A DNA stretch of 64,000 nucleotides from Altererythrobacter lutimaris (GTDB lineage Bacteria; Pseudomonadota; Alphaproteobacteria; Sphingomonadales; Sphingomonadaceae): positions 186,001-250,000 of the forward strand of contig NZ_JABWTA010000001.1 of the NCBI RefSeq assembly GCF_013371495.1. Reading direction: 5' to 3'. The number at the start of each line of letters is the position of its first letter. The first letter of the stretch is position 1. A model generated the notes under the pieces. That model had not been told where the DNA came from. It searched no databases and was given only the letters and a program-made list of their open reading frames with translations. This document shows positions 19,052 to 37,904 of the stretch, one piece after another. Both the position numbers and the translations under genes were made by a program.

Positions 19052-20158
19052 ATGACTGACCATATCGGTTTTGCACCCAATCACGACGAGGCATCGCGCC
19101 AGGCATTCGTCGCTAGCCTCAAGAAATTCGTCAATTTCGACGTCGAAGCCAAAATTGCAGAGGTGTTCGAAAACGAGCTGGCGCCGTCCGCAGAAAGCCC
19201 GCCGCAAACGCGCGATGATGCGGCCGCATTGCTTGAGCCGCATCCGCTTTACCAGCTGTGGGCGTCGCTCACCTTTCACAGCCAGAACCTGATGTGGGAT
19301 GCAGTGCAGGAAACCACCGATCGCACGATTGATGCGCAGGTCGAGGCCTATCGCGCAATCGCAGGAAAAAAAGACAAGGGTGGTTCGGTTTCATTGAGTG
19401 AAGAGTTGCTCGTCAAAGCCCCAATCGCCACCACAGAAATCCATCGCCAGCCGGGCGGTTATTGGCGAGAGAACCGCCCTGACGATATCGAAGCCGCGCT
19501 CAATTACGCCGGGACAGTCGATCTCTACCGCAACGCCAAAGGCATGGGGATTGGAGCGAAGCCAGCCGCGGATTCCATTGCGCGCTTTGTAGCGGGCATT
19601 GCGCGGCAATACGCGCCCGATCTGGATCCCGAGACGATCCTCGACATGGGGTGCGGGACTGGCGAGCAGACGCTCGGTTACAAGCGCGAATGGCCTGATG
19701 CAGAAGTGACCGGGATCGACGTGGCGCGCCCCTTTATCCGCTTTGCGCACGGTCATGCTGAAAGCGAAAGCGTGCCTGTGCATTTTGCTGAGATGGATGC
19801 AGGCGCGACCACTTTTGAAGACGAGAGCTTCGATCTGATTGTCTCCATCATCATGTTCCACGAGACGACCAAAGCGCAAGTACATGACATCATGAGCGAA
19901 TGCTGGCGTTTGGTGCGCCCCGGCGGCCTGGTGCTCCATCTCGACGTGCCCTACCAGCCATCGCGCATTCCACTGGTAAAACAAGTCACGAACAATTGGC
20001 AGGTGCGCCACAATGGCGAGCCGTTCTGGAGCGGGTTCGCGAGCCTCGACATGAGAGAAGAAGCGATCAAAGCTGGCTTTGATGCCGAGCACGCTTTTGC
20101 GACTTATGAAGGGCAGGGGCCTGCGATTTATCACTTCTTCGGCGGCAGGAAACCGTAA
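19052..20158 (+). CDS. SAM-dependent methyltransferase with N-terminal extension (module A)
   Basis: The protein has 368 residues. About 190 residues of mostly helical extension, with an HRQPGGYW segment near residue 130, precede a class I methyltransferase fold. Motif I is ILDMGCGTGEQT near residues 198-209, the acidic motif II is VTGIDVARPF, then come TTFEDESFDLIVSIIMFHET and LVRPGGLVLHLDVPY. It is paralogous to the proteins at 29675 and 43045, sharing FEDxSFDxxxSxIxxHE. Its stop overlaps the start of the small partner gene (TAATG). The substrate is unknown. The location in a catabolic cluster suggests a small-molecule substrate rather than nucleic acid, but this is inference. Confidence 0.85.
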   Translation: MTDHIGFAPNHDEASRQAFVASLKKFVNFDVEAKIAEVFENELAPSAESPPQTRDDAAALLEPHPLYQLWASLTFHSQNLMWDAVQETTDRTIDAQVEAYRAIAGKKDKGGSVSLSEELLVKAPIATTEIHRQPGGYWRENRPDDIEAALNYAGTVDLYRNAKGMGIGAKPAADSIARFVAGIARQYAPDLDPETILDMGCGTGEQTLGYKREWPDAEVTGIDVARPFIRFAHGHAESESVPVHFAEMDAGATTFEDESFDLIVSIIMFHETTKAQVHDIMSECWRLVRPGGLVLHLDVPYQPSRIPLVKQVTNNWQVRHNGEPFWSGFASLDMREEAIKAGFDAEHAFATYEGQGPAIYHFFGGRKP

Positions 20159-20463
20159 TGAGCGATGCACCAGATCTGCCAGTCGGTCCGCGCGCGGGCG
20201 ACCGCGAGACAACGTTCTTCGACGATCCGGTGAAGGATCATTTGCTCCGATCGCTTGTGACGGTGACGATGGAGCTTTCAGTCACGCGTGACCGGCTTGC
20301 AAGCCTCGAAGCGTTGCTGAAGGAGAGCGGCGTGGTTTCAGCCGATGCACTCGATACGCTTCAGCCTGACATGGAGACCGCAAGACTGCGCGAAGCGGCG
20401 CGGTCAAAGCTCATCGAAGACGTTCTCGGGCCGCTTATGCGGCGCTTAGCGAAAGAGGGCTGA
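20158..20463 (+). CDS. Small helical partner protein of methyltransferase module A
   Basis: This 101-residue protein matches no family I can name. Two helical stretches are predicted by eye: one around HLLRSLVTVTMELSVTRDRL and ASLEALLKESG, and one in the last 35 residues (ARLREAARSKLIEDVLG). It shares a pattern with the small proteins at 29334 and 44088: hydrophobic-rich D-x2-L/I, LxxE/T, then a DRL-x-x-LE-x-x-L-x(3)-G block, then a D-x(3-4)-P-x(3-5)-R segment and an I/V-x-x-V tail. Its start overlaps the methyltransferase stop by one base, so equal production and a complex are likely. Confidence 0.75.
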   Translation: MSDAPDLPVGPRAGDRETTFFDDPVKDHLLRSLVTVTMELSVTRDRLASLEALLKESGVVSADALDTLQPDMETARLREAARSKLIEDVLGPLMRRLAKEG

Positions 20464-20566: not shown

Positions 20567-21823
20567 TTGCAGATCATTGATGTCCTGTTTGCGCCTGCCA
20601 ATGGCGCATTTTTCTATGATGATCAGGCCGCGATCCGTGCCGGCCGCGAGCATGACGGTGTGGCCTATAAGGGCGAGCCGCTCACTCCAGGCTTCACGAG
20701 CGTTCGCCAGCCATCAAAAGCGCTCTCTATAGGGCTGATGCTGGAAGATGACGCGGTCATCTGGGGCGATATGGTCAGCGTGCAATACTCAGGCGCTGCC
20801 GGACGTGACCCTCTGTTTGAGCAAGCCGCTATCCTGAGCTTTTGTCGCGAAGTACTCATCCCGCGTTTAATCGGTCTTGATGTGAGCCAGGGTGCGGAAA
20901 TATGCGACGCCGCGCTCGCATTCCATGATGGTGCGCGTTTGCCGATTGCGGTCGAATACGGCGTCAGTCAGGCGCTGCTGAAAGCGGCTGCCTATGCGCG
21001 CCGAATCACACTGGCGGAGCTTATCGCGCAGTGGCTTGGCGTTCCTCCTCCAACGCAAGCCGTCCCACTCTTCGCGCAAAGCGGTGATGAGCGGTACGCG
21101 AATGTCGATACCATGATCCTCAAGCAGGCCGATGTGCTGCCGCATGGCCTGATCAATTCGGCGGAGAAGTTCGGGCCTGATGGCGCGACCTTCAGCGATT
21201 ATGTCGTCTGGGTGGCTGACCGGATCGCGCAGCTGGGCGAAGCAGGTTACAAACCGACGCTTCACTTCGATGTCTATGGCTGGATTGGCCTTGGTATCGG
21301 GACCGATCCAAAAGCCATCGCTGATTATATCGCGAGCGTTGCTGAGCGTGTCGCCGGATACACGCTGAACATCGAATGCCCGGCTGACTACGGCAACCGG
21401 ACTGCACAGATCGAGAACTATGCTGCGATTGTCGAGCATGTCGATCAGCTATGCGGCAACGCGACGGTCGTTGCGGATGAGCATTGCAACACTCTTGAGG
21501 ACATCGAAGCCTTCATCGCAGCGCGCGCGGCGCATATCATTCAGGTCAAGACACCGGATGTGGGCAATCTGCTTGATACTGCGCGCGCCATTGTTGCTGC
21601 GCGAGAAGCAGGGATCGGCGCATACAGTGGTGGGACCAGCGCAGAGACTGACATTTCGGCACGCGCTTGCGTCCACGTGGCTTTGGCAGCGCGAGCCAGC
21701 ATGATGCTCGCGAAACCGGGTATGGGCGTGAACGAAGGCATCACCATTGTAGGTAATGAGCAAGCACGCACGCTGGCGACAATCCGCGCGCGTCTCAACA
21801 GGGATAATTCCCATGCAGGATGA
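20567..21823 (+). CDS. mal: Methylaspartate ammonia-lyase
   Basis: The protein is 418 residues from a TTG start (GGAG 7 bases upstream); clostridial MAL has 413. MAL interconverts threo-3-methylaspartate and mesaconate plus ammonia, and belongs to the enolase superfamily. The start is set by homology: LQIIDVLFAPANGAFFYDDQ matches the family opening. Diagnostic blocks follow: VSVQYSGAAGRDPLF, YANVDTMILKQADVLPHGLIN (with the His of the family), LHFDVYGWIGLGIG, VADEHCNT, and IQVKTPDVGN with the catalytic Lys. The usual EGP metal-ligand region reads NIECPADYGN here, keeping the Glu. A CoA-transferase gene overlaps its 3' end. No glutamate mutase is present, so methylaspartate must come from elsewhere, or the reaction runs toward amination. 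Confidence 0.9.
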   Translation: MQIIDVLFAPANGAFFYDDQAAIRAGREHDGVAYKGEPLTPGFTSVRQPSKALSIGLMLEDDAVIWGDMVSVQYSGAAGRDPLFEQAAILSFCREVLIPRLIGLDVSQGAEICDAALAFHDGARLPIAVEYGVSQALLKAAAYARRITLAELIAQWLGVPPPTQAVPLFAQSGDERYANVDTMILKQADVLPHGLINSAEKFGPDGATFSDYVVWVADRIAQLGEAGYKPTLHFDVYGWIGLGIGTDPKAIADYIASVAERVAGYTLNIECPADYGNRTAQIENYAAIVEHVDQLCGNATVVADEHCNTLEDIEAFIAARAAHIIQVKTPDVGNLLDTARAIVAAREAGIGAYSGGTSAETDISARACVHVALAARASMMLAKPGMGVNEGITIVGNEQARTLATIRARLNRDNSHAG

Positions 21824-22940
21824 TCTCAACGGCGTTCTTGTGGTCTCGCTCGAACAGGCAGTCGCTGCGCCATATGCAAGCTCGCGGCTGGCTGACGCAG
21901 GCGCGCGGGTCATAAAGATCGAGCGCCCTGAAGGCGATTTCGCGCGCAATTATGACACCATGGTCAAAGGCGAGAGCGCGTATTTCGTGTGGCTTAACCG
22001 CGGCAAAGAGTCTCTGTGTCTTGACCTGCGCGAAAAAGATGACCGGGCCTTGCTGCTTCGGATGATTGCGCGGGCCGATGTGTTCATCGAGAACCTGAAG
22101 CCCGGCACACTTGCGAAGTTCGGCGTCGAACTGGACGCGCTTTGTGACGAGCACAATGGCCTCATCGCTTGCTCGATATCGGGCTTTGGCGAAGAGGGGC
22201 CATACTCCAAGCTCAAAGCCTATGATTTGATCGTCCAAGGCGAAGCGGGGCTCTGCGCGATCACGGGTACAGCGCATGGTCCGGCGAGAGTCGGCGTATC
22301 GGTCTGCGATATCGCAGCCGGCATGACTGCGCATGCTGCGATCCTTCAAGCTCTCTTTCGCCGCGAGCGGGAGGGCCACGGGCGACGCATCCGGGTTTCG
22401 CTGTTCGATGCGCTCGCGGACTGGATGAACGTGCCGTTCCTGCAATACGCTTATGGTGGCTATCAGAACCAGCGAAGCGGTGTGAACCACCCCTCCATCG
22501 CACCATATGGAGCCTTTCCGACTGGCGAAGGCAAACAGGTCATTTTTTCTGTCCAGAACCAGCGCGAATGGTACGCTTTCTGCGAACATGTGATGGGTGA
22601 TGCAGCGCTTGCAGAGGACCCGCTGTTCAAGACCAATATGGAACGGCTCGACAATCGCAGCGAGTTGGAAAGCCGTGTCCGAGCCCGTTTTTCGGAACTC
22701 AGAATCGCCTCAGCAATGGAGCTGCTTGAGCGCAGCGGCATCGCTTATGGGCGACTCAATTCGATCGCAGAGCTAGCAGAGCATCCCCATCTGCGGCGGC
22801 TGACGGTGAATACCGACGCGGGTGAAGTCCACGTGATTGCGCCTGGAGCGCTGTATGGCGATAGCGCATCAGAGCGTGTTCCAACTGTTCCGAGTATTGG
22901 AGCGCAATCGGCTGAAATGCGTGAAGAATTCTCGGAATAG
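21813..22940 (+). CDS. CaiB/BaiF family (class III) CoA-transferase, candidate mesaconate CoA-transferase
   Basis: The protein has 375 residues. The ATG at 21813 overlaps the 3' end of the MAL gene by 11 bases. Family signs are the N-terminal LEQAVAAPYASSRLADAGARVIKIERP, LDLREKDDRALL, and VFIENLKPGTLAKFGV, where the Asp of the motif is replaced in register by Glu-Asn (ENLKPG). CISGFGEEGPYSKLKAYDLIVQ is also present. The enzyme moves CoA between carboxylic acids through an aspartyl-CoA intermediate. Next to MAL, the natural guess is mesaconate or a related C5 dicarboxylate, but the substrate cannot be read from sequence alone. Confidence 0.85.
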   Translation: MQDDLNGVLVVSLEQAVAAPYASSRLADAGARVIKIERPEGDFARNYDTMVKGESAYFVWLNRGKESLCLDLREKDDRALLLRMIARADVFIENLKPGTLAKFGVELDALCDEHNGLIACSISGFGEEGPYSKLKAYDLIVQGEAGLCAITGTAHGPARVGVSVCDIAAGMTAHAAILQALFRREREGHGRRIRVSLFDALADWMNVPFLQYAYGGYQNQRSGVNHPSIAPYGAFPTGEGKQVIFSVQNQREWYAFCEHVMGDAALAEDPLFKTNMERLDNRSELESRVRARFSELRIASAMELLERSGIAYGRLNSIAELAEHPHLRRLTVNTDAGEVHVIAPGALYGDSASERVPTVPSIGAQSAEMREEFSE

Positions 22941-22982: not shown

Positions 22983-23006
22983 GTATGACATGCGCTATTG
23001 TCATAC
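22983..23006. promoter_or_regulatory. Perfect inverted repeat upstream of the IclR gene
   Basis: GTATGACA-TGCGCTAT-TGTCATAC: 8-bp perfect arms with an 8-base spacer, 60 bases before the IclR start. It is a likely autoregulatory operator for the IclR protein or another dimeric regulator. It is different from the TATCC-N7-GGATA motif of the cluster. Confidence 0.55.
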
Positions 23007-23066
23007 TTCAATGACACTACTTGGTTAAATTGCGATAGCAAAGGCCATGGGAAGCAAGGGCGCTGT

Positions 23067-23864
23067 ATGGAACGTGGGGTACCAATTCGTGCGATCAGTC
23101 GGGGGCTTTCCGTCCTGACAACAGTCAATCGTGACGGCCCCATATCAATGATGGACATCGCAAGAGCGGCGCAGGTTCCGTACCCGACTGCTTGCCGCAT
23201 TATCCAAACGCTGCTGCATGAAGGGATGGTCGAGAAGGAGCCGCATCGCAAACGGTACCGCGTGACATCGCTCGTACAGACACTCTCGACCGGATATCAA
23301 ACGGAAGACATGCTGGTCTCAGCCGCGCGCGAGCATATCGAGACTCTGTGCCAGGAGCTCAGTTGGCCGATTTCCATCGCGACGCGTGTTGGCACACGCA
23401 TGATGGTACGCGATTCCACGCATAAGATGACTTCGCTCACCTTCTCGCATTACTTTCCGGGATACACTCTGCCCATTGCGGAATGCGCAACGGGCAAGGT
23501 GCACTTGGCGTTTTGTGATGATGAAGAGCGTGAGGCTATCCTTGAAGGCTTGAAAGCGATTGAGACGGAGAGCTCGCACATGGGCCTCGTGCTGATGGGC
23601 GATGACTACATGCTCACGAAGATTCGCAAGGATGGCTACGCGATGCAGATACGGAACGTCTACAATGCGGATCCGGGCAAGACCTCTTCGATCGCTGTTC
23701 CGCTGTTTGATGGGAACGACCAGCTGATAGGCTCGCTTGCGCTGATATTCTTCGCCAGCGCCATGAACGGCGATGAAGCGGTCGCTAAGTACCTCAAACC
23801 GATGCAGGATACCGCTCGCGCGATTGGAAGCTCGATGCGAGCCGCGACAAGCGCGGCCGCTTAG
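23067..23864 (+). CDS. IclR family transcriptional regulator
   Basis: The protein has 265 residues, the usual IclR length. The N-terminal winged helix is ISRGLSVLTTVNRDGPISMMDIARAAQVPYPTACRIIQTLLHEGMVEK. The effector domain follows, with LPIAECATGKVHLAF and IAVPLFDGNDQLIGSLALIFFA. IclR proteins in catabolic clusters respond to aromatic or small acid effectors (MhpR, PcaR, PobR types). The ATG at 23067 is preferred because the upstream open frame overlaps the inverted repeat. It is the only regulator gene in the 19-54 kb supercluster, so it is the first candidate to act on the shared dyad sites. Confidence 0.92.
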   Translation: MERGVPIRAISRGLSVLTTVNRDGPISMMDIARAAQVPYPTACRIIQTLLHEGMVEKEPHRKRYRVTSLVQTLSTGYQTEDMLVSAAREHIETLCQELSWPISIATRVGTRMMVRDSTHKMTSLTFSHYFPGYTLPIAECATGKVHLAFCDDEEREAILEGLKAIETESSHMGLVLMGDDYMLTKIRKDGYAMQIRNVYNADPGKTSSIAVPLFDGNDQLIGSLALIFFASAMNGDEAVAKYLKPMQDTARAIGSSMRAATSAAA

Positions 23865-23884: not shown

Positions 23885-25294
23885 CTAAGCAGGCACAACG
23901 CAGGTTGCAGCATGCTCGCCTGCGAGCCGACCCAACGTAGTAGCGGTGAGCAGGCCATTGCCCGCCATATAACCGTCAGCGCCCGGGCCTGAAATGCCTC
24001 TTGCAGCGCCTCCGCCAGCGTAGAGGTTAGGCATAGTGCCTCCGCCCGCGCGCTTGACCCGCGCGTGCTCGTCCACTTCTAAACCGCCTTGCGTGTGGAA
24101 CAGTGCGCCCGTTACTTTGACCGCATGGAAAGGCGCGGAGAGCGGCGCCTTGCCAGCGAAACTGCGACCGAACTGGTCGCGCTCTTCGGTTTCGATAAGT
24201 CTATGTGTTTCTGCGACTGTCGCTTCGAGACCCTCGGCATCAACGCCGATTTTCTCAGCGAGTTCAGCGAGTGTGTCGGCGGAGTTCAAGCATCCTGCGG
24301 ACATAGCCTGCTGGTAGTCGTCGAATTGCACCATAACTTGGTGGCGGGTTTCATCATAGACGCTCCAGGCAACATGGCCGTCCTGCCGCAAGACTTCGAC
24401 CGCTTGCTCGGAATAGCCCGCCGCTTCATTGGCAAAACGCTGCCCAGCGCGGTTCACCTGGATCCCACCTTCTGTGATCAGCGGCCAAAGTATCGGGATT
24501 CCGTAGCCTGCTGCAAGCCCAGCATGCCCTTGATAGGCGCTTAAGTCTGCCATGGCTGCATTCAAATCGCGGCCCCATGCGATCGCATGGCCTTTATTAC
24601 CCGGATGCCCGTGAAATGTGGCATGCTCCAGCTCAGGGATGAGCTCGCTGACCATTTCCTGATTTCCCGCAAACCCGCAGCAAGCGAGGATCAAAGTCTC
24701 GCAGCCGATAATGTCGGTTTCGCCGTCGGGGCGCGTTGCATCGATAGCGATGATCTTGTCGGCTTCATTGACGTAGATTGTATTGACCAGGCTGTCCGTG
24801 AGGATGTCGACGCCTGCATCTTCGCACGCGCTCGCAAGTGCGCCCATCAACTCGCTGCCGGACCGGCTTGGCATACCGTGCATGCGAAGCGCGGAGTGTC
24901 CTGGATAGGTAAAGCCTTCCACAAGGCTTAGATCGATGCCGTGTTTCTCAACCAGCCAATCGATCGTCTTGCCGGATTCTTGCGCAAGGTGCTGGACCAG
25001 CTCTGCATCGACTTGGCCTTTGGCTTTGGCCGCAATGTCTTTTGCGAAAAGATCCGGCGAGTCTTCAATGCCTTTCGCGCGCTGGATCGCGCTGCTCGCC
25101 GCCGGGATAAGGCCGGTGGACATGGCAGTCGTTCCCATTGGCTGGCCGTCGCGCTCCACAACCAGAACATCGACGCCAGCATCACGTGCGGCAAGCGCAG
25201 CGCAAAGTCCGGTTCCCCCGCCACCGACAATCACTACCGGAATCTCGGCGATGGATTCGACGTTTTCTGTGCGAATGACGCGAATATCGCTCAT
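23885..25294 (-). CDS. FAD-dependent oxidoreductase, fumarate reductase/3-ketosteroid dehydrogenase-like flavoprotein
   Basis: The protein has 469 residues. The N-terminal FAD site is VVIVGGGGTGLCAALAARDAGVDVLVVERD, and the C-terminal FAD block is NLYAGGGAARGISGPGADGYMAGNGLL. The middle has the FAD-binding-2/succinate-dehydrogenase-like fold, with LFHTQGGLEVDEHARV near the end. The family reduces or desaturates alpha,beta-unsaturated acids or ketones. It is the last gene of the four-gene operon that starts at 29164; its ATG overlaps the alcohol dehydrogenase stop. No haem or flavin-transfer domain is fused, so its electron partner is unknown. Confidence 0.85.
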   Translation of the reverse strand: MSDIRVIRTENVESIAEIPVVIVGGGGTGLCAALAARDAGVDVLVVERDGQPMGTTAMSTGLIPAASSAIQRAKGIEDSPDLFAKDIAAKAKGQVDAELVQHLAQESGKTIDWLVEKHGIDLSLVEGFTYPGHSALRMHGMPSRSGSELMGALASACEDAGVDILTDSLVNTIYVNEADKIIAIDATRPDGETDIIGCETLILACCGFAGNQEMVSELIPELEHATFHGHPGNKGHAIAWGRDLNAAMADLSAYQGHAGLAAGYGIPILWPLITEGGIQVNRAGQRFANEAAGYSEQAVEVLRQDGHVAWSVYDETRHQVMVQFDDYQQAMSAGCLNSADTLAELAEKIGVDAEGLEATVAETHRLIETEERDQFGRSFAGKAPLSAPFHAVKVTGALFHTQGGLEVDEHARVKRAGGGTMPNLYAGGGAARGISGPGADGYMAGNGLLTATTLGRLAGEHAATCVVPA

Positions 25295-26406
25295 GTGTGC
25301 ATACCTTCAAAAGTCAGAACTGGCTTGATGACTTTGCCGCTCGCCGCTTCCGCGAAAGCCTCAGCGATGTCTTCAAACCGATATGTTTTGATCAAGCGGT
25401 CAATCGGCATGTCCCCGCTCGAGAGATAGGCGATCAGCAATGGCAAGAACTCGGACGGGACCGCATCGCCTTCGATGATCCCTACAATCGACTTGGTCAT
25501 AAAATCGAGCCCGCCCGGATGCGGAACCGGGGCATCGAATTCGCCTGGCAGAGTGAGCACGCCCAGAGTGCCTCCACTGTGCAAGGCCGCGATGCACGCT
25601 TCGAATGTTGCTTGCGTGCCTGCGGTATCCAGCGCTGCTGTCACGCCGCCGTGGGTGAGCGCTTGCACTGCTTCCGCCCAATCCTTGTTGGAACCGTCGA
25701 TGACGTGCGATGCACCAAGCTCTTTGGCTAATGCCCGCCGTTCAGAACCGAGTTCAATCGCGACGATGGGGTCACAGCCGATGATTTTGCCTGCCATAAT
25801 CGCTGCGGCACCCACCGCGCCGGCGCCAACAACCAGCAAGGGCCGATCAGGTAGAGCTCCGATCTGATTGAATACCGCGCCCGCACCTGTCTGAATGCCG
25901 CAGCCAAGCGGGGCTGCTGTGACCATGTCGAGACCATCCGGAATGCGCACGAGGTTTCGCTCGGTTGCTAATGCGTAAGTGGCGAAACAGCTCTGCTGGA
26001 AGAATGCGCCACCGACTTCGCTGCCATCTTCGCGCGTCAGAGAAGGACGATCGGTAGCGCGCTGTCCCTCGATATTGAGCGCGATCCCGTCAAAGCAATA
26101 GGCTGGCCTGCCGCCCTCGCAATTGGGACAAGCGCCGCAGAAGCCGAAAGTTGCAACAACCCGGTCGCCTTTCTCGAACTGGGTTACTGCAGAGCCTGTC
26201 TCGACCACTGTTCCTGCGCCTTCATGGCCGAACACTCGCGGCGTCTCGCTCCATTGCGAGATGCCGAGATCGGTGTGGCAGATGCCTGCCGCTTCGACTT
26301 TAATCACGACTTCGTCCGGCGCTGGATCGTCAAGCATAAGTGTTTCGATCCGCGGTGGAGCGCCTTGGCCGTTACAGACGGCTGCCTGGATGGAGCGCGG
26401 CATCAA
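25291..26406 (-). CDS. Zinc-dependent medium-chain alcohol dehydrogenase (class III-like)
   Basis: The protein has 371 residues. The catalytic zinc site is GICHTDL and GHEGAGTV. The structural zinc loop CGACPNCEGGRPAYC keeps all four cysteines. The NAD fold is seen in LLVVGAGAVGAAAIMAGK. It resembles aryl-alcohol and S-(hydroxymethyl)glutathione-type dehydrogenases and oxidises an alcohol or hydroxyacid to an aldehyde. It overlaps neighbours by 4 bases on both sides, between the lyase and the flavoprotein, so it probably acts on a product or precursor of those steps. Confidence 0.88.
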   Translation of the reverse strand: MMPRSIQAAVCNGQGAPPRIETLMLDDPAPDEVVIKVEAAGICHTDLGISQWSETPRVFGHEGAGTVVETGSAVTQFEKGDRVVATFGFCGACPNCEGGRPAYCFDGIALNIEGQRATDRPSLTREDGSEVGGAFFQQSCFATYALATERNLVRIPDGLDMVTAAPLGCGIQTGAGAVFNQIGALPDRPLLVVGAGAVGAAAIMAGKIIGCDPIVAIELGSERRALAKELGASHVIDGSNKDWAEAVQALTHGGVTAALDTAGTQATFEACIAALHSGGTLGVLTLPGEFDAPVPHPGGLDFMTKSIVGIIEGDAVPSEFLPLLIAYLSSGDMPIDRLIKTYRFEDIAEAFAEAASGKVIKPVLTFEGMHT

Positions 26407-27284
26407 GCGCCCCCGTGCAGGTCTTGGAACGCGACGATTTCTTCCATTCCGAGCAAGCGAGATATCTCGCCGAAGTCGAACATGTTGTCATGCGCTGGAT
26501 TGGCATCATCGTTTGCCAGAGAATTGTAGAAGTTCGCCGCACCTTGCAGCGCCGAAAGCGATGGCCCCGCAGGATAGATAACTAGCTTTGCACCAAGCTT
26601 GGCGTAGCCTGACGGAGACAAGATCGGCGTGAAACCGCCATGCGCTGCATTGATCAGCAAAGGTTTGTCGAACGCTGCGGCTGCTGTCGCGATCTCTTCT
26701 TCGTTCTCAGGCGCTTCCAAGAAGAGTATGTCAGCACCCGCCTCGCTGTACGCTCTCAGCCTATCGATGGCAGCATCCAAACCTTCCGTACGCCGCGCAT
26801 CGGTTCGCGCAATGACCATCAGATCGTCATCGCCGCGCGTCTCAACAGCGACCCGTATTCGCTTGACCATCTCCTGCGCGGGGACAGATGTCGCTCTTCC
26901 CACATGACCGCAAATCTTGGGGAAAGGCTGATCTTCGATCTGCATCGCAGCGATCCCGGCTTGGCAGTAGAGCTGAACTGCGCGGCGCAAGTTCGTAAGG
27001 CTGCCAAAGCCGGTATCCGCGTCTGCAATGATCGGCACTTCAGCGCGTGCTGCAAACCGGCCAAAAGTGCTGACGAAATCGCTCATCCCGGCAATGCCCA
27101 CGTCGGCTTCACCATAGGCAGAGGCTGTGCCCCAATAGCCCGAGGCGTAGAGCGCTTTGTGTCCGGCGGCTTGGCCGAGCAGCAAGCTCATATGGTCGTA
27201 GATGCCCGGTGCGGCGACGATGTCTTCGCTTGCCAGCAACGCACGCAGTTGAGCGCCGCCTGAGAGTTTTTGATGCTCGTTCAT
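26403..27284 (-). CDS. Isocitrate lyase/PEP mutase superfamily lyase (methylisocitrate lyase-like)
   Basis: The protein has 293 residues, the length of PrpB and dimethylmalate lyases. Its barrel carries APGIYDHMSLLLG, LYASGYWGTAS, PIIADADTGFGS, MQIEDQPFPKICGH and ARTDARRTEGLDAAIDR. The KxCGH loop with its catalytic Cys (KICGH) points to carbon-carbon lyase activity rather than PEP mutase. The DADTG metal site is intact. Substrates in this family include 2-methylisocitrate, 2,3-dimethylmalate and oxaloacetate. Position next to a propionyl-CoA-synthetase homologue favours a methyl-branched malate or citrate, but this is inference. Confidence 0.85.
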   Translation of the reverse strand: MNEHQKLSGGAQLRALLASEDIVAAPGIYDHMSLLLGQAAGHKALYASGYWGTASAYGEADVGIAGMSDFVSTFGRFAARAEVPIIADADTGFGSLTNLRRAVQLYCQAGIAAMQIEDQPFPKICGHVGRATSVPAQEMVKRIRVAVETRGDDDLMVIARTDARRTEGLDAAIDRLRAYSEAGADILFLEAPENEEEIATAAAAFDKPLLINAAHGGFTPILSPSGYAKLGAKLVIYPAGPSLSALQGAANFYNSLANDDANPAHDNMFDFGEISRLLGMEEIVAFQDLHGGA

Positions 27285-29164
27285 GCAAAAATGCCTTTGA
27301 TTTCGTCGAGTGCGCTTGCGTCCTCGATTGTAGGCGGAATCTTGGCCTTTTCCCCGTCGGCAATTTCGCGGATGGTTTTGCGCAGGATCTTGCCCGAGCG
27401 CGTCTTGGGCAGCTTGGCGAGCACATGAACCTGCTTGAAAGCGGCAACCGGACCGATCTGAGACCGGACTGCGGCAATGAGTTCAGCTGCGAGATCAACA
27501 GCCGAAATGTTTGCGCCCGCTTTAAGGACGACAAACCCGACCGGAATCTGTCCTTTCAACTGGTCCGCTTTCCCGATCACAGCACATTCAGCGACGCTGG
27601 GATGGGCAGCCAGTACTTCTTCCATCGCAGACGAGCTTAAACGGTGGCCCGCGACATTGATGACATCATCGATGCGCGCCATCACGCTGAGATAGCCATC
27701 CTCGTCGATAAACCCACTATCGCCGGTCAGGTAATTGCCGGGGAAGCGGCTGAGATAAGCTTCCTGGTAGCGCTCAGGCGCACTCCAGAGTGTCGGTGCG
27801 AAGCCTGGGGGCAAAGGCAAGCGCGCAACAATCGCACCGCTTTCGCCAGCTGCGACAGGCTCGCCCGCCTCATTGACGCAGGCCAGATCCCACCCCGGCA
27901 TTGGCATGGTGGAGGAGCCTGCCTTGGTCGGAAACTCTTCGATGCCAAGAGGGTTGGCGGTGATCGCACTGCCGGTTTCCGTCTGCCACCAATGGTCAAC
28001 GACCGGGACACCGAGCAAATCTTGCGTCCATGCCAGCGTGTCAGGGTCAGTGCGTTCACCAGCGAGATAGACCGCATTTAGATTGGAGAGGTCTGCTTCC
28101 TTCGCGAGTTCGCCGTCGGGATCGACTTGCTTGATCGCGCGCGTCGCGGTTGGGGCAGTAAAGAAGCTGCGGACCTTGTGCTTTGCCATGATGCGCCAGA
28201 AAATCCCTGCATCAGGCGTGCCGACGGGCTTACCTTCAAAGATCACGCTGGGATTGCGATGCAGCAGCGGCGCGTAGCAAATATAGCTGTGGCCAACGAC
28301 CCAGCCTACATCGCTCGCCGCCCAATAGGCTTCACCCGGCGGGCAATTGTAGATGCCTGTCATGCTCCAGTTAAGCGTCACCAGATGCCCGCCAGTATCG
28401 CGCACGATGCCTTTCGGCTGTCCAGTCGTTCCTGACGTATAAAGGATATAGAGCGGATGCGTCGCTTCAACGGCAACGCAATCAGCTGGCTCAGAGCTAG
28501 CGATCAAAGCCGACCAGTCATGCGCGTTGTCAGCAGACAAATCGGCTTCGTGCTGCGAGCGCTGCCAGAAAATCGTGTTGGAAGGCCGATGGGCGGCGAG
28601 CGCGTAGGCATCATCAAGGATCGGCTGGTAGGGCAGCGTCTTCGTCCCTTCGATCCCGCAACTCGCAGCCAGCACGACTTTGGGCTGCGCATCATCGATG
28701 CGGGTTGCGAGTTCGGGCGCAGCAAAGCCTCCGAAAACGACTGAATGGATCGCTCCGATCCGCGCACAAGCAAGCATACCAATCACTGCTTCCGGCGAGT
28801 TTGGCATGTAGATCAGCACGCGATCGCCTTTGGTGACCTCAAGCGACGCCATCGCGCCCGCCAGTCGCGACGTCGCGTCTTGCAACTCCGCATAGGTCAG
28901 AATGCGTGACGTGTTCGTAACCGGGCTTTCGTAGATCAGAGCGGTCTCATCACCGTGACCCTCGTCAACGTGGCGGTCCACGCAATTGTAGCAGGCGTTG
29001 ATTTTGCCATCGACGAACCAGCGCGGGATGAGGTCGCCCTCGCGCTCAAGGATCGTCTGCGGCTTCACCTCCCAATGCAGTGCCTCGGCCTGTTCCGCCC
29101 AGAATGCCTCCGGCTCGTCGATCGAGCGCTGATAGATGGGAAGATAAGTGTTCATACGCGTCAT
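27281..29164 (-). CDS. Acyl-CoA synthetase of the acetate/propionate type (PrpE-like)
   Basis: The protein is 627 residues from the ATG at 29164; an ATG three codons later (29155, MNTYLP) and a GTG at 29176 are alternatives. This AMP-forming ligase has PLYILYTSGTTGQPKGIVRDTGG (phosphate loop), VVDHWWQTETG, GNYLTGDSGFIDEDGYL and the C-terminal KTRSGKILRK with the adenylating Lys. DVGWVVGHSYICYAPLL and the short-chain type opening (YQRSIDEPEAFWAEQA) make it closer to PrpE than to long-chain ligases. It is the first gene of the four-gene minus-strand operon and diverges from module B across dyad site B. Confidence 0.88.
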   Translation of the reverse strand: MTRMNTYLPIYQRSIDEPEAFWAEQAEALHWEVKPQTILEREGDLIPRWFVDGKINACYNCVDRHVDEGHGDETALIYESPVTNTSRILTYAELQDATSRLAGAMASLEVTKGDRVLIYMPNSPEAVIGMLACARIGAIHSVVFGGFAAPELATRIDDAQPKVVLAASCGIEGTKTLPYQPILDDAYALAAHRPSNTIFWQRSQHEADLSADNAHDWSALIASSEPADCVAVEATHPLYILYTSGTTGQPKGIVRDTGGHLVTLNWSMTGIYNCPPGEAYWAASDVGWVVGHSYICYAPLLHRNPSVIFEGKPVGTPDAGIFWRIMAKHKVRSFFTAPTATRAIKQVDPDGELAKEADLSNLNAVYLAGERTDPDTLAWTQDLLGVPVVDHWWQTETGSAITANPLGIEEFPTKAGSSTMPMPGWDLACVNEAGEPVAAGESGAIVARLPLPPGFAPTLWSAPERYQEAYLSRFPGNYLTGDSGFIDEDGYLSVMARIDDVINVAGHRLSSSAMEEVLAAHPSVAECAVIGKADQLKGQIPVGFVVLKAGANISAVDLAAELIAAVRSQIGPVAAFKQVHVLAKLPKTRSGKILRKTIREIADGEKAKIPPTIEDASALDEIKGIFA

Positions 29165-29225
29165 TCTCTTATGCACTCCGCCTCTATTCCTGCCTCGCTT
29201 TCGACGCTTACCTATGGCTCGATAT

Positions 29226-29242: not shown

Positions 29243-29333
29243 GTCTCTGTGGACCTTTGCGGAACTGTGCGCAGCTTTGGTATTTGAATTAGTGAGAGAT
29301 CACTCCTTGATCAGGAAAGACGTAAAGGGTGTC

Positions 29334-29678
29334 ATGAACAAGCAAACTTCCAGCACCGAAGTTCCCGCGCAATTGGGTGATGAGATCGGAGGCTCCGGCA
29401 AAGTGTATTTCGAGAATGTCGTGATCGACAATATTCTCGACGCGCTGCTCGAATTGTCTGCCGCCACATGGACATTCCAGGACCGGTTGTTGGTGCTTGA
29501 AAAAGTGCTGGAGAAGCATGGCATTAACGCCGCTGAAGAAATCGAGCAGCATGTCCCTGATGAAGCGGAAATCGAGTCGCGGGCAGAGCAGCGCGCTGCA
29601 ATGGTACAGCGCGTATTTGGCAATTTCGTTCGTCGGCCGGTTGCCGGCGTGAACATATCTGCAGGAGATCAAGCATGA
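29334..29678 (+). CDS. Small helical partner protein of methyltransferase module B
   Basis: This 114-residue protein belongs to the same family as those at 20158 and 44088. The conserved block is NILDALLELSAATWTFQDRLLVLEKVLEKHGIN, then EEIEQHVPDEAEIESRAEQR and a hydrophobic tail (MVQRVFGNFV). It has about 20 extra N-terminal residues (MNKQTSSTEVPAQLGDEIGG), no signal peptide and no cysteines. Here the small gene precedes its methyltransferase, the reverse of modules A and C, and overlaps it as ATGA. The ATG at 29334 is chosen because the upstream frame has no other good start. Confidence 0.75.
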   Translation: MNKQTSSTEVPAQLGDEIGGSGKVYFENVVIDNILDALLELSAATWTFQDRLLVLEKVLEKHGINAAEEIEQHVPDEAEIESRAEQRAAMVQRVFGNFVRRPVAGVNISAGDQA

Positions 29679-30766
29679 GCCGCGGTCACATTGGCGTTCT
29701 TCCACGTCCGACCAAACTTGAAGATGAAAGCTATCTTGAGTTCATCACCAGCTTCCGCCGTTTGGCCATTCAGGAGATGTTCCCGAAGGTAGCGGAGCAT
29801 GGCGAAGTCGCGCTCGCAAAATCGCTTGAAAAAGGTGAGATCGCCAAGCCTGCTGAAGGCGAAGCGCTCCCATTGGGCGAGATCAAGAAGGTCTTCGGCA
29901 AAAATCCGGTCACGCCCACATTCCAGCGATTTGTACGCACGCAACAGGAAATGATGTGGCGCCGTACGCGCGAAAGCTTTTATCGCAATATCGATGAAGT
30001 GATGGCCTACATGGATGATGCGGAGGCGAAATGCCCCGAGCGTATCCATATCGATCCAGATTTTGTGGAGCCGGACTACACCCGCCGCGAGATTCACTGC
30101 CAGCCGGGCGGATACACCGACGATCCGATGGGCGGCATCGTTTTTCACTATGGAACCAAGGTCTTCTACGAAGGCTTCAACGATCAGGACGAGCTCCATA
30201 TCGAGCTTGCTGAAAAAGCGACCAAACCTGCTGATGGCAAGGTCGAGCGCATTCTCGATATTGGCTGTTCAATCGGTCAGGCGACGACTGTGCTGAAGGA
30301 TTTGTATCCTGAAGCTGAAGTCTGGGGCCTGGACGTTGGTAAGCCGCTGGTTCGCTACGCCCATGCGCGCGCGCTGGAGCACGGCAAGGAAGTCCATTTC
30401 AAGCAGGGCCTGGCTGAAGACAGCGGCTTTGAAGATGGCTCATTTGATATGGTGCTGAGCTATATCCTCTTCCACGAAGTGCCAGTGAAGAAGATGAAGG
30501 AAATCATCGCTGAGACTTTCCGCGTGCTGCGGCCCGGCGGTGTCTTCTCGATCTATGAATTCCCTAGCAATGACCAGAACCAGGTCAGCGCAGCGCACCG
30601 CTTCCTGATTGACTATGACAGCAAAAACAATTGCGAGCCGTATTCACCCGGCTTCGTTGCGAGTGACTTCAAAGGTATCATTGAAGAAGCCGGCTTTGTC
30701 GTTGAGCAGGGGCCTGGGCTCACCAATGACTTCTTGCAGTCTTTGGTGGCGCGCAAGCCCGACTGA
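29675..30766 (+). CDS. SAM-dependent methyltransferase with N-terminal extension (module B)
   Basis: The protein has 363 residues, paralogous to those at 19052 and 43045. The N-terminal ~185 residues include MMWRRTRESFYRNIDEV, HIDPDFVEPDY and an IHCQPGGY segment like HRQPGGYW in module A. The catalytic fold has motif I ILDIGCSIGQATT near residue 193, WGLDVGKPLVRYAHA, SGFEDGSFDMVLSYILFHEV and FRVLRPGGVFSIYEF. Motif I reads GCSIG instead of GCGTG, which still fits a SAM loop. The gene overlaps the small partner by 4 bases and is followed by a terminator. Confidence 0.85.
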   Translation: MSRGHIGVLPRPTKLEDESYLEFITSFRRLAIQEMFPKVAEHGEVALAKSLEKGEIAKPAEGEALPLGEIKKVFGKNPVTPTFQRFVRTQQEMMWRRTRESFYRNIDEVMAYMDDAEAKCPERIHIDPDFVEPDYTRREIHCQPGGYTDDPMGGIVFHYGTKVFYEGFNDQDELHIELAEKATKPADGKVERILDIGCSIGQATTVLKDLYPEAEVWGLDVGKPLVRYAHARALEHGKEVHFKQGLAEDSGFEDGSFDMVLSYILFHEVPVKKMKEIIAETFRVLRPGGVFSIYEFPSNDQNQVSAAHRFLIDYDSKNNCEPYSPGFVASDFKGIIEEAGFVVEQGPGLTNDFLQSLVARKPD

Positions 30767-30846: not shown

Positions 30847-32001
30847 TCAAGCCAGTTCGACGCTGGCTGGATCATATTTGAAGATCCCCAAAGCGTCTTC
30901 GTTTTTAGGCGGATTGTCGCGCAAGACATACGGATCCATCGCTTGCAGGCGATCACCTCCGACATTGCTTTCCGCTTGCAGGAATGCGGCGCGTTCGACG
31001 CGCGCTTTTTCATACATGGCAAGCGCCTGCAGCGGGTCTGAACTTGTCGCAAAGCACCGCCCGAGGACCACACCGTCTTCAATCGCGCTGGAGGCGCCTT
31101 GGCCCATGTAAGGGAGCATGGGGTGGGCGGCATCACCCAGCAGCCCGACGCGGCCCTTGACCCATTGGTTTAATGGCGTGCGGATGAAGAGGCCCCAGCG
31201 ATAAAGGTCGTCCTTGCCGATCGCAGCGATTGCGTCCGTCACATAATCGGTCCAGCCTTCGAAAATCGCAGCGAGCTCTGATGGGTGCGCCTTCGCATTC
31301 CAGCTTTCCTCGACCCATCCGTCTGCGCGGGTGAGGGCAACCATATTGACGAGATCAGTGCCGCGGACCGGATAAGTGACCAGGTTTTGACCGGCGCCGA
31401 TGTGATTGACGTTGGTCCGCTCGGTCGCGCAGGCGCTGAGCTTTTGCCCCGGAATGAGGGCTCGCCATGCCACATGCCCGCTAAACTCAGGTTCCGGTGT
31501 GTCGAACAGGATATCGCGGATGACGGAGCGCAATCCGTCTACCCCTATAACAACATCTGCTTCTGCAGTTGAGCCGTCATCGAAACGCATTTCGACATGG
31601 CTTTCGTCTTGCGAAAGGCCTGTCAAAGCCTTGCCCATGACGCAATTGTCCGTGCCGAACGCATCGACCAGCCCGTTCATCAAATCGGCGCGATGCAATT
31701 GCAAGTAAGGTCCGCCATATTGGTCTCGGCAGGGCACGCGATCGATGTCGAGCAGCAGCTCGCCGGTCAGCCCGTGGAAGAGCAATTGGTGAAGCGGCTC
31801 GTTAGCTGTGCTCTCAAGAAATCCGCCCAGACCAATGCTATCAAGGCCTTTGACCGCATTGGGGCTAAGCGAAATGCCTGCGCCGACTTCTCCAAATTCT
31901 GGGGCGCGTTCGTAAATGACTGGCTCCAGACCAGCCTTTAGCAAAGCAATCCCGGCGGTCAGCCCGCCAATGCCGCCACCGATAATCGCAACCCGTTTCA
32001 T
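30847..32001 (-). CDS. FAD-dependent aromatic/heteroaromatic hydroxylase (salicylate hydroxylase-like)
   Basis: The protein has 384 residues. The FAD site is RVAIIGGGIGGLTAGIALLKAG, the second motif is DVVIGVDGLRSVIRD, and the third is GRVGLLGDAAHPMLPYMGQGASSAIEDG. This is the group A flavin monooxygenase family that includes salicylate 1-monooxygenase, 3-hydroxybenzoate 6-hydroxylase and 6-hydroxynicotinate 3-monooxygenase. It needs NAD(P)H and oxygen. The ring substrate cannot be assigned. Its ATG overlaps the stop of the VAO-type oxidase upstream, so the two act in one unit. Confidence 0.88.
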   Translation of the reverse strand: MKRVAIIGGGIGGLTAGIALLKAGLEPVIYERAPEFGEVGAGISLSPNAVKGLDSIGLGGFLESTANEPLHQLLFHGLTGELLLDIDRVPCRDQYGGPYLQLHRADLMNGLVDAFGTDNCVMGKALTGLSQDESHVEMRFDDGSTAEADVVIGVDGLRSVIRDILFDTPEPEFSGHVAWRALIPGQKLSACATERTNVNHIGAGQNLVTYPVRGTDLVNMVALTRADGWVEESWNAKAHPSELAAIFEGWTDYVTDAIAAIGKDDLYRWGLFIRTPLNQWVKGRVGLLGDAAHPMLPYMGQGASSAIEDGVVLGRCFATSSDPLQALAMYEKARVERAAFLQAESNVGGDRLQAMDPYVLRDNPPKNEDALGIFKYDPASVELA

Positions 32002-33584
32002 AGTCCCAGAGCTCCCGGATTGAGGATGCCGTTGGGATCCAGTCGATGCTTCAAATCGCGCAGCAGTGCATCGGCCTCGCCTTCGCGGGTGCTTGCGTAA
32101 GGATAGAGCCTGCCGAGCTGAAAATGCGTGCTCCCATGCTCGCGCATCAGGGCCACGATTTCTTGCACCAGCTCGCGGACAAGCGCGCGGCCTTCAGGGT
32201 TGTCTGGGTATTCCTGTGCGACCCCATCAAGATAAGCGGGCGTGCGTCGCTCGTGATAGAGCATTTGGCTGTCCGGCCAGTAGAACACAGGTTCGTAAAG
32301 AGTGCCAATCCCCGCGATGCCAGCAAAGAACTCAGCGATGGTCACTTGATGCTGAGCCAATTGCGCTTGGCGTCGTTTCTTCAAGGCGACGTAATCCTCA
32401 TGGAACGCTTTGATCCGCGAGTCTGCTATCACGCCATGGATTGGCAGCAAACGGCGCCCGTCCGGATGCGTCACCGGCAATTCAGGGAAGGGCGCACTGC
32501 GCGTTGCCAGCGGCACGGTGTTGACGATTTCCTTGCCGCCTTTGGCGAGCGCTTTGATTGCGTTCAAACGGCTGCGCATCTCGTCCTTGTCGCGCGCCTC
32601 CACCATGAAATGCGCGGTGTAAGCCGCACCATCGAGGAAGCGCCGCCCGGCCATCGCGACGCGTGCCATCCGTCCGACGGCACCGATCACACTGCCTGCA
32701 GCCAAGCCGATGCGCCACATCGCTTTGACGTCCTCAACCAAGTTTGGCGGGCCAGCATTTTGCCGCGCAACATCAGCATCCATTGCGAGAAATTCGCTTG
32801 CCAGACGCTGCAAGCGCACTTCGCGCAGCATGTCAGCCATGGGCTCAAAGTCATTGAAAGCGAATGACAAACCATTGACCAAGGCAGGGCGCGGTTCGAT
32901 CTCCAGCGTTGCGGCGGTCTTTATCCCCAAAGCGCCTGCATCATTCGCAAATATGCCAGTCAGATCAGGTCCGAAATTGCGGTTGAAAGGCGTTGTGCCT
33001 GCGCTGCCGTCCGAGCCAGTATGCAGAACTTCGCCCGCTCCTGTGACGATCTCGAAGCTCTTCACTGTATTGGCGGAGGCACCAGCCACGCCGGAACCGA
33101 AAGTAACCGAGCCTTGGCTGAGGCCGCCTCCGATCGTAGCAGTCCCGCCCGACATCGGACCCCAGAACCGGGCACGCATGCCATGCTTTGCAAGCGCTTC
33201 ATCGAGCGCCGCCCATGTGCAGCCTGCTTCGACTGTCACTTCGCCATCTTGCGCATTGATCGAACGGATCGCGGACAGCCGACTGAAATCGAGAATGATG
33301 CTGCTCGTTGCGCGTGGCTGGAACGCATCTGTGTAAGACATTCCGCCGCCGCGCGGGCAAATCGCGATGCTGTTTTCGTTGCACCATTTTGCAACCTTTG
33401 CGGCATCTTGCGTCGAACCCGGTGAGACTACCGCCAAGGGCAATGCGCCTTCGAAGAACAGGTCCTGACTGGCGAAGCGCAGCTCCTCTTCGCGGGTCTC
33501 GACAGCTTCGCTACCGACTAGCTCCGTCAAAGCGGAGACTAGATCAGTTGCGAGGGTTTCAGACGGGTTCATCGGTGCATTCAT
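31998..33584 (-). CDS. FAD-binding oxidase/dehydrogenase of the VAO (PCMH) family
   Basis: The protein has 528 residues. The FAD-binding domain reads LAVVSPGSTQDAAKVAKWCNENS, ICPRGGGMSYTD, VTVEAGCTWAALDEAL, and FWGPMSGGTATIGGGLSQGS. The C-terminus DPNGILNPG is standard for 4-cresol dehydrogenase, D-lactate dehydrogenase and glycolate oxidase-like members. It oxidises an alcohol, hydroxyacid or phenolic benzylic carbon. An in-frame ATG four codons later is an alternative start. It is the first gene of the unit with the monooxygenase and diverges from the MFS operon across dyad site C. Confidence 0.85.
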   Translation of the reverse strand: MNAPMNPSETLATDLVSALTELVGSEAVETREEELRFASQDLFFEGALPLAVVSPGSTQDAAKVAKWCNENSIAICPRGGGMSYTDAFQPRATSSIILDFSRLSAIRSINAQDGEVTVEAGCTWAALDEALAKHGMRARFWGPMSGGTATIGGGLSQGSVTFGSGVAGASANTVKSFEIVTGAGEVLHTGSDGSAGTTPFNRNFGPDLTGIFANDAGALGIKTAATLEIEPRPALVNGLSFAFNDFEPMADMLREVRLQRLASEFLAMDADVARQNAGPPNLVEDVKAMWRIGLAAGSVIGAVGRMARVAMAGRRFLDGAAYTAHFMVEARDKDEMRSRLNAIKALAKGGKEIVNTVPLATRSAPFPELPVTHPDGRRLLPIHGVIADSRIKAFHEDYVALKKRRQAQLAQHQVTIAEFFAGIAGIGTLYEPVFYWPDSQMLYHERRTPAYLDGVAQEYPDNPEGRALVRELVQEIVALMREHGSTHFQLGRLYPYASTREGEADALLRDLKHRLDPNGILNPGALGL

Positions 33585-33652: not shown

Positions 33653-33701
33653 GTGGCGCGCGTAATTGTGCGATGAATGGTGGGGCGGGCTAGGCGCACT
33701 T

Positions 33702-35063: not shown

Positions 35064-35069
35064 AATCTC

Positions 35070-37372: not shown

Positions 37373-37382
37373 GGAAGAGACG

Positions 37383-37895: not shown

Positions 37896-37904
37896 AGGAC
37901 AATC

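Follow-up and report, generated by a model that had tools for sequence, protein, structure and literature searches.

A methylaspartate ammonia-lyase gene in an Altererythrobacter lutimaris genome without glutamate mutase subunit E, and a proposed exit through citramalate

Where would a methylaspartate ammonia-lyase (MAL) obtain its substrate, and where would its product go, in a bacterium without glutamate mutase? In known pathways MAL works after this mutase, as described in PMC4682846 and PMC5592240. A preliminary description of the window, a stretch of 64,000 nucleotides from Altererythrobacter lutimaris, pointed out a MAL gene that overlaps a CoA-transferase gene and lacks the mutase. We see an even chance that this gene encodes a working, mutase-free MAL within a cluster that degrades an external compound, with citramalate as the exit.

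The MAL and CoA-transferase genes

The MAL gene (20567..21823, + strand) starts with TTG at 20567, seven bases downstream of a GGAG, and its stop lies at 21823; an alternative start is GTG 20501. With 551.1 bits against a curated cut-off of 286.15 the protein belongs to TIGR01502 (EC 4.3.1.2). Both PF05034 and PF07476 score above their cut-offs, and four MAL sequences from the PDB are matched with E-values of 9e-104 to 2.5e-108. The lysine of VKTPD, one of the features on which the preliminary identification as MAL was based, is present. A residue comparison revealed that the equivalents of Q73, F170, Q172, H194, D238, E273, D307, Q329, K331, Y356, T360 and L384 are retained, and the sole change among the pocket residues checked is a serine for C361. 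The catalytic His and Lys, the presumed metal ligands, the carboxylate-binding and hydrogen-bonding residues and the methyl pocket (F170, Y356, L384) are all kept. The residue roles follow PMC7241714, according to which the exchange C361S in CaMAL left the kinetics comparable. Judged by its sequence, the gene looks like a true, working MAL that would deaminate 3-methylaspartate to mesaconate.

The class III (CaiB/BaiF) CoA-transferase gene (21813..22940, + strand) probably starts at ATG 21813, although the longest frame begins at 21756, and the overlap with MAL noted earlier amounts to 11 bases. The protein reaches 335.1 bits with PF02515 (gathering score 23.3). All 23 transferases in a comparison share the presumably catalytic Asp of VGVSVCDIAAG; a pattern match showed it in 19 of them and alignment in the other four. 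For NF041294, the succinyl-CoA:mesaconate CoA-transferase (Mct), the score of 200.9 bits stays below the cut-off of 700, so that the protein is not a member, and it likewise falls below every NCBIfam cut-off as a succinate-glutarate, oxalate or carnitine CoA-transferase. The transferase tree has a single very distant outgroup, which makes its root unreliable. Since genes for a class I fumarase and a CoA-ester lyase are frequent neighbours of related transferases, (S)-citramalate would fit better as acceptor, and the comparison favours it over the conversion of mesaconate to mesaconyl-CoA that had been suggested.

Glutamate mutase and the MAL subfamily

The reported absence of glutamate mutase holds for the whole genome (2.95 Mb, 99.95% complete): PF06368, the profile of subunit E, found no match in it. 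The same profile was above its cut-off in four of 385 alphaproteobacteria and in all three control plasmids. Subunit S (TIGR01501) gave two matches, both below the cut-off, which are MetH and methylmalonyl-CoA mutase. TIGR01503 also had no match in the genome and is uninformative, as its built-in control was silent everywhere. On the strength of the PF06368 and TIGR01501 searches we rejected the idea that the genome encodes a glutamate mutase away from the window; the mutase that belongs to the methylaspartate pathway of glutamate fermentation and to the methylaspartate cycle was not found.

In a tree of 45 rows (44 different), hand-chosen from MAL loci, the window MAL falls into a clade (support 100/100) that comprises 30 of the sampled MALs, all proteobacterial and roughly half of them from rhizobia. 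This clade is separated by 21 columns from six rows labelled mutase-linked: each of these columns is fixed in the six, and no more than a single clade row shares the residue. W239, adjoining the DVYG motif, occurs in 30/30 clade rows compared with T in 6/6 mutase-linked MALs; together with C/S271 it is a fixed difference beside the metal ligands, and both may indicate a shift in substrate. A seventh mutase-linked MAL, that of locus L090 with GlmS, GlmL and GlmE beside it, agrees with the six at 20 of the 21 columns. PF06368 detected subunit E in none of 30 further genomes with clade-type MALs, of which 21 were reached through loci and have no completeness value; in ten of these 21 the MAL was classed by identity, outside the tree. 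An alphaproteobacterial subfamily appears to have parted from glutamate mutase, so 3-methylaspartate or a similar compound must come from elsewhere.

The preliminary description regarded this as a new setting for MAL, which does not agree with the loci of relatives. Among the best 80 of 118 MAL loci, which include near-copies and hence do not count independent events, a CoA-transferase follows MAL in 72, a CoA-ester lyase is near 53 and a class I fumarase near 51 (within 12 kb, at identity thresholds of our own choice: 25% for the FAD dehydrogenase, the IclR regulator and the mutase, 35-45% for the others). Mutase-free pairs of MAL and transferase are common in rhizobia. The rhizobial operons L029, L051 and L126 carry a MAL of the window's clade and an approximately 60% identical CoA-transferase with no mutase nearby; unlike the window, they also contain a CoA-ester lyase, a fumarase and an aldehyde dehydrogenase. 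Three other alphaproteobacteria, Ensifer adhaerens, Rhizobium sullae and Gemmobacter fulvus, have plasmids with complete operons of mutase, MAL, CoA-transferase, CoA-ester lyase and fumarase. As in the window, a related CoA-transferase (48-50% identity) directly follows MAL on these plasmids, but GlmS and GlmE are present and the MALs belong to a different clade. To judge from these gene arrangements, the mutase-free setting is not peculiar to the window organism and recurs in rhizobia.

Neighbouring genes and their conservation

Downstream of the transferase lie an IclR-family regulator (22998..23864, + strand, start TTG 22998 or ATG 23067; PF01614, PF09339) and four genes on the - strand. 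According to profile search the first of these (23885..25294) encodes a FAD dehydrogenase or ene-reductase of the flavocytochrome c type without haem domain. We rejected a plain fumarate (mesaconate/methylsuccinate) reductase here, since the Arg of the ANRLGGN motif, presumably needed for reductase function, has no counterpart. It is followed by a zinc alcohol dehydrogenase (25291..26406; PF08240, PF00107), a lyase of the isocitrate-lyase/PEP-mutase superfamily with a CGH motif (26403..27284) and an AMP-forming CoA ligase of the acetate/propionate type (27281..29176; PRK10524, 695 bits, below the cut-off of 955). The lyase is a candidate 2-alkylmalate (citramalate) lyase; its best profile is methylisocitrate lyase, below the cut-off, which leaves citramalate as a guess.

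Two SAM-dependent methyltransferase genes flank this region on the + strand. Methyltransferase 1 (19052..20158; PF13649) is followed by a 101-amino-acid partner (20158..20463), and methyltransferase 2 (29675..30766), which aligns to the first with 29%, is preceded by a small partner (29277..29678); neither partner has a Pfam family. For methyltransferase 2 a structure was predicted from 7 sequences with low confidence (mean pLDDT 64), and all the fold matches listed for it were SAM methyltransferases of a generic kind. Further downstream a FAD monooxygenase (30847..32001, - strand), whose nearest solved relatives are tropone 2-monooxygenase and 6-hydroxynicotinate 3-monooxygenase, and a FAD-linked oxidase (31998..33584, - strand; PF01565) precede a conserved distal part (33666..38903, + strand) with an MFS transporter, an aldehyde dehydrogenase, an alpha/beta hydrolase and a ketimine-reductase-like protein. 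These genes bear out the catabolic-looking neighbourhood described before. The window also contains a cbb3 oxidase operon, and this alphaproteobacterium, a relative of Erythrobacter, is presumably aerobic. No enzyme that would supply MAL with methylaspartate was recognised among the window genes, and no CitDEF-type citramalate lyase among those scanned. PutA (15350-18880) was rejected as a cluster member, as it was not seen in the compared stretches of relatives.

Nine of 150 genomes, all nine from the window's genus and one of them that of the window, contain MAL, and the presence of the neighbouring genes was scored by tblastn in the compared stretches, in place of ORF calls, which favour long frames and sometimes merge or mis-start genes. 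The IclR regulator, the alcohol dehydrogenase and methyltransferase 2 were each found in 8/9 MAL genomes, the monooxygenase, the oxidase and the distal part (window included) in 7/9, the CoA ligase in 6/9 and methyltransferase 1 upstream of MAL in 5/9 (window included). The isocitrate-lyase-type lyase occurs in all nine, as an orthologue in five and as a 41-47% identical paralogue in four. The FAD dehydrogenase is present at 76-100% identity in exactly the nine MAL genomes, in one of them on a different contig from MAL; since these genomes come from one genus, shared descent inflates this co-occurrence. The transferase is present in only three of the nine. The claim that MAL and transferase are directly coupled is weakened by this count, and within the genus their coupling, as scored by gene presence, is loose. 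On a Sphingomonadales contig from another genus (L085), MAL, transferase, methyltransferase 2, monooxygenase and oxidase are present, with no FAD dehydrogenase and no isocitrate-lyase-type lyase within its 15.6 kb.

Possible source and fate of methylaspartate

Gene identities, the overlap, the lack of mutase E, conservation and co-occurrence can be read from the sequences; from these we infer reactions, their directions and an external source as follows. An external compound, and not glutamate, would be broken down by the IclR-flanked cluster to 3-methylaspartate or a close 3-alkyl-aspartate, which MAL would deaminate to mesaconate. Hydration to (S)-citramalate would be performed by the single class I fumarase of the genome (PF05681; C10:2230365-2231186), a candidate mesaconase that is 70% identical to one MAL-operon fumarase; it is unlinked to the MAL cluster and may be a housekeeping enzyme. 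Two routes, perhaps both present in the window organism, could then cleave citramalate to an acetyl unit and pyruvate. One would use the CoA-transferase to form citramalyl-CoA from succinyl-CoA and citramalate, then a CitE-like lyase. The genome has three CitE-like genes, none above an NCBIfam cut-off among the matches listed (the best reaches 219 bits against 375 for RipC), and their products are only 27-34% identical to MAL-linked CoA-ester lyases. The other route would consist of the isocitrate-lyase-type lyase and the AMP-forming CoA ligase, on which relatives without the transferase would rely. Microcystin was dismissed as a source, as its methylaspartate, which we take to be the D-erythro form, is unfit for MAL, and a literature search showed no link among the papers listed.

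Other readings of the same genes were compared with this proposal. It is unlikely that the transferase acts as in the methylaspartate cycle of haloarchaea and channels mesaconate via mesaconyl-CoA and methylmalyl-CoA to propionyl-CoA and glyoxylate. Haloarchaea use a class III Mct after MAL (PMC5592240), the window transferase shares its superfamily with 201 bits, and the three CitE-like proteins and the methylmalonyl-CoA mutase, which could handle propionyl-CoA, would suit this route; but the score is far below the Mct cut-off, the transferase relatives are often beside fumarase and CoA-ester lyase, and six of the nine MAL genomes of the genus do without the transferase. Possible, if doubtful, is a substrate shift of the mutase-free MALs, which would then release fumarate or an alkylfumarate from aspartate or from a different aspartate with a substituent at C3 or N. 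The 21 separating columns, W239 among them, argue for such a shift, whereas the retained methyl pocket and hydrogen-bonding residues of the window MAL and the fumarase and CoA-ester lyase genes of its relatives fit the route from mesaconate to citramalate. That MAL and transferase are a jointly acquired pair, loosely tied to the FAD dehydrogenase, alcohol dehydrogenase and lyase genes, seems very unlikely. The patchy transferase, a 67% identical copy in a genome without MAL (G043) and FAD dehydrogenase relatives (at most 61% identity) in eight further genomes without MAL above the cut-off point in this direction; against it, MAL tracks the close FAD dehydrogenase in 9/9 genomes, even where unlinked, and the gene order around MAL is broadly kept in 8/9, a figure again inflated by shared descent.

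The route through citramalate resembles the methylaspartate pathway of glutamate fermentation (Clostridia and the enterobacterial FumD cluster), for which PMC4682846 gives MAL, mesaconate, a class I fumarase as mesaconase and the cleavage of citramalate to pyruvate and a C2 unit. Unlike that pathway, the window genome has no mutase E, no CitDEF-type lyase was recognised among the window genes scanned, and the organism is presumably aerobic. The haloarchaeal cycle, as covered in PMC5592240 and the review PMC8307300, has MAL and a class III CoA-transferase in common with the window; here, in contrast, mutase E is absent and the transferase stays far below the Mct cut-off, and acetate assimilation is an unlikely purpose.

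With much reservation, mutase-free MALs could more generally be the exit step for compounds with a 3-methylaspartate-like skeleton, fed by rhizobial and Erythrobacteraceae front ends. Some rhizobial mutase-free loci adjoin ectoine-degradation-like genes (ectoine-hydrolase-, deacetylase- and aminotransferase-like), where the window has IclR, FAD dehydrogenase, alcohol dehydrogenase, isocitrate-lyase-type lyase and CoA ligase. These neighbours hint at C-methylated ectoine-like solutes, which a ring hydrolase, deacetylase, aminotransferase and semialdehyde dehydrogenase would convert to 3-methylaspartate. The corresponding front end of Erythrobacteraceae would be another one, made up of the methyltransferases, the monooxygenase and the FAD oxidase, and both pathways would end in pyruvate and acetyl-CoA via citramalate. 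If this were true, branched amino acids or compatible solutes would form a pool that has so far escaped recognition. The mutase-free MAL subfamily itself, with its need for 3-methylaspartate or a similar compound from elsewhere, marks a gap, open to test, in what rhizobia and Erythrobacter-like bacteria do with carbon and nitrogen. One such gene carries the automatic annotation "anaerobic glutamate catabolic process", which is probably wrong for mutase-free MALs. Compared with the ectoine degradation module, the proteins of L051 are related but not members (DoeA 141 against a cut-off of 575, DoeB 194.5 against 402.7).

MAL, the overlapping CoA-transferase gene and glutamate mutase

Two overlapping genes are located on the forward strand at window positions 20567-22940. 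The first one (20567-21823) encodes methylaspartate ammonia-lyase (MAL): the product reaches 551 bits with NCBIfam TIGR01502 (cut-off 286), contains both Pfam MAL domains according to a profile search and matches the four MAL sequences of the PDB (E-values between 9e-104 and 2.5e-108). When 45 MAL-like proteins were aligned, it was evident that in the window MAL the equivalents of Q73, F170, Q172, H194, D238, E273, D307, Q329, K331, Y356, T360 and L384 are kept, and that the C361 position is occupied by Ser. For CaMAL, the residues reported to hold the methyl group are Y356, L384 and F170, and the exchange C361S is reported to result in kinetics close to the wild type (PMC7241714). The second gene encodes a class III CoA-transferase (PF02515); its most probable start is at 21813, so that the two reading frames share 11 bases. 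The enzyme identity and the gene overlap given in the preliminary description are therefore confirmed.

In the methylaspartate cycle, glutamate mutase acts before MAL (PMC8307300). The claim that no mutase accompanies this MAL held in a search of the genome (2.95 Mb, 99.95% complete): mutase subunit E (PF06368) gave no match, and subunit S (TIGR01501) gave only two matches below the cut-off, methionine synthase and methylmalonyl-CoA mutase. TIGR01503 likewise found nothing in this genome, in a search whose control was also without a match anywhere. Among 385 evenly drawn alphaproteobacteria MAL was above the cut-off in four, including A. lutimaris, and mutase E in four, with no genome containing both. 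A MAL without mutase points to another source of methylaspartate. Among the matches listed, no paper dealt with a mutase-free MAL subfamily, MAL in Erythrobacter or a rhizobial MAL operon; as subscription literature was mostly outside the scope, this absence is weak.

A mutase-free MAL clade and its gene neighborhoods

In a maximum likelihood tree with 45 rows the window MAL belongs to a clade of 30 with a support of 100/100, consisting of 14 sequences from rhizobia and other Hyphomicrobiales, 11 from Sphingomonadales and five others, all from alphaproteobacteria or proteobacterial bins of unstated class. Outside this clade are seven MALs from Ensifer, R. sullae, Gemmobacter, E. coli, Peptoclostridium, Prevotella and an acidobacterial bin, and mutase genes adjoin MAL in all seven cases. 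Twenty-one alignment columns are fixed in six mutase-linked rows and present in at most one of the 30 clade rows; next to the DVYG motif, for example, Trp 239 is found in 30/30 clade rows versus Thr in 6/6 mutase-linked rows. A third group (n = 7) lacks pocket residues and comprises four proteins in genome G209, one in G348 and two in Rhizobium sp. 007. The mutase E search was extended to 36 further genomes or records: it detected subunit E on all three control plasmids and in the acidobacterium, whereas none of the 30 further genomes with window-kind MALs and neither of the two with third-group MALs had a match.

The divergent MAL-like proteins of loci L131-L134 (four copies in G209), L136 and L130 lack methyl-pocket and some carboxylate-binding residues, some are adjoined by peptide-binding-protein or CoA-ligase-like genes, and they probably act on another substrate. 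A haloarchaeal plasmid MAL adjoins an IclR regulator (L141:6596-9230), with no mutase found within 8 kb.

To describe the surroundings of MAL outside the genus we used the best 80 of 118 loci fetched by similarity, many of them closely related to each other. A CoA-transferase directly follows MAL on the same strand in 72/80; three Erythrobacter contigs are among the other eight. Within 12 kb of MAL we found aldehyde dehydrogenase (58/80), CoA-ester lyase (53/80), class I fumarase (51/80), Lrp regulator (42/80), class III aminotransferase (22/80), AstE/AspA-type hydrolase (15/80) and M24 hydrolase (9/80), and mutase genes only in the acidobacterium (1/80). The annotated MAL locus of S. meliloti pC is also without mutase. 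Complete operons of glutamate mutase, MAL, CoA-transferase, CoA-ester lyase and fumarase are present on three alphaproteobacterial plasmids (L127, L128, L129), one of them adjoining histidine-utilisation (hut) genes.

Mutase-free rhizobial MAL operons (L051:1019-13244, L077, L029, L126) are in some loci joined by ectoine-degradation-like genes. Eight of the best 80 loci combine M24 and AstE-type hydrolases with transferase, lyase, fumarase and aldehyde dehydrogenase. In L051 the M24 protein scores highest with ectoine hydrolase (141, cut-off 575) and the AstE-type protein with DoeB deacetylase (194.5, cut-off 402.7); L029 has an SSADH-like aldehyde dehydrogenase and an aminotransferase above the PRK07482 cut-off. 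A table in PMC4417242, not discussed in the part of that paper covered, includes a putative 3-methylaspartate ammonia-lyase, fumarate hydratase, 4-aminobutyrate transaminase and aldehyde dehydrogenase on one rhizobial replicon. We hypothesize that the L051/L029-type set of hydrolase, deacetylase, aminotransferase and dehydrogenase resembles ectoine degradation displaced by one methyl group, which suggests breakdown of a C-methylated ectoine-like compound by the rhizobial operons.

Conservation of the cluster within the genus

Among 150 relatives, with Erythrobacter and Altererythrobacter records as the named members of the genus, MAL was above the cut-off in nine, all from this genus. The FAD dehydrogenase (23885-25294, reverse strand) is present with 76-100% identity in exactly these nine genomes, and with at most 61% in eight other relatives; in G046 it lies on a different contig than MAL. 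The CoA-transferase was found with at least 67% identity in three of the nine and in one genome without MAL. A tblastn comparison of the window proteins with the examined stretches of the nine genomes detected an isocitrate-lyase (ICL)-type lyase in all of them, as orthologue of the window lyase (26403-27284) in five, as 41-43% paralogue adjoining MAL in three and as 47% paralogue adjoining the FAD dehydrogenase in one. The dehydrogenase and the lyase, and not the transferase, are therefore the dependable partners of MAL in the genus. A counter-case is the Sphingomonadales contig L085 (15.6 kb), which has MAL and transferase but neither FAD dehydrogenase nor ICL-type lyase. The IclR regulator (22998-23864), alcohol dehydrogenase (25291-26406) and methyltransferase 2 together with the small protein paired with it occur in 8/9 genomes, FAD monooxygenase and FAD oxidase in 7/9 (the G078 contig stops short of both) and the CoA ligase (27281-29176) in 6/9; the G046 stretches gave no match for IclR, alcohol dehydrogenase, methyltransferase 2, FAD monooxygenase or FAD oxidase.

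A proposed route to pyruvate

The MAL/CoA-transferase pair without mutase stands as initially described, but the suggested conversion of mesaconate to mesaconyl-CoA is less likely. The transferase stays under every specific family cut-off (succinate-glutarate 229/750, oxalate 217/522 and mesaconate 201/700 bits), and we prefer citramalate over mesaconate as acceptor because the relatives' loci often carry CoA-ester lyase and class I fumarase. Some substrate of the cluster would yield 3-methylaspartate, MAL would release mesaconate and NH3, and a class I fumarase (C10:2230365) would hydrate mesaconate to (S)-citramalate. The CoA-transferase could then form citramalyl-CoA, to be cleaved to acetyl-CoA and pyruvate by one of three CitE-like proteins. 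Weak points are the distance of the fumarase gene from the MAL cluster and the low identity (27-34%) of these CitE-like proteins to the MAL-linked CoA-ester lyases. A second plausible route would avoid citramalyl-CoA: the ICL-type lyase may act as 2-methylmalate (citramalate) lyase, splitting (S)-citramalate into pyruvate and acetate, and the neighboring CoA ligase would convert the acetate to acetyl-CoA. The PDB entries closest to this lyase are of the phosphorylmutase and methylisocitrate-lyase type (about 158 bits), followed by 2,3-dimethylmalate lyase (147 bits) and petal death protein (139 bits). Clusters for itaconate and methylsuccinate are treated in PMC12290011.

The FAD monooxygenase (30847-32001) has tropone 2-monooxygenase (210 bits) and 6-hydroxynicotinate 3-monooxygenase (184 bits) as best solved relatives, a hint that the cluster substrate may be a ring compound. 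One stretch of clustered catabolic genes also contains three pairs of a SAM methyltransferase and a partner of about 100 residues (19052-20463, 29277-30766 and 43045-44378); the methyltransferases have an unfamiliar N-terminal half and the partners belong to no Pfam family.
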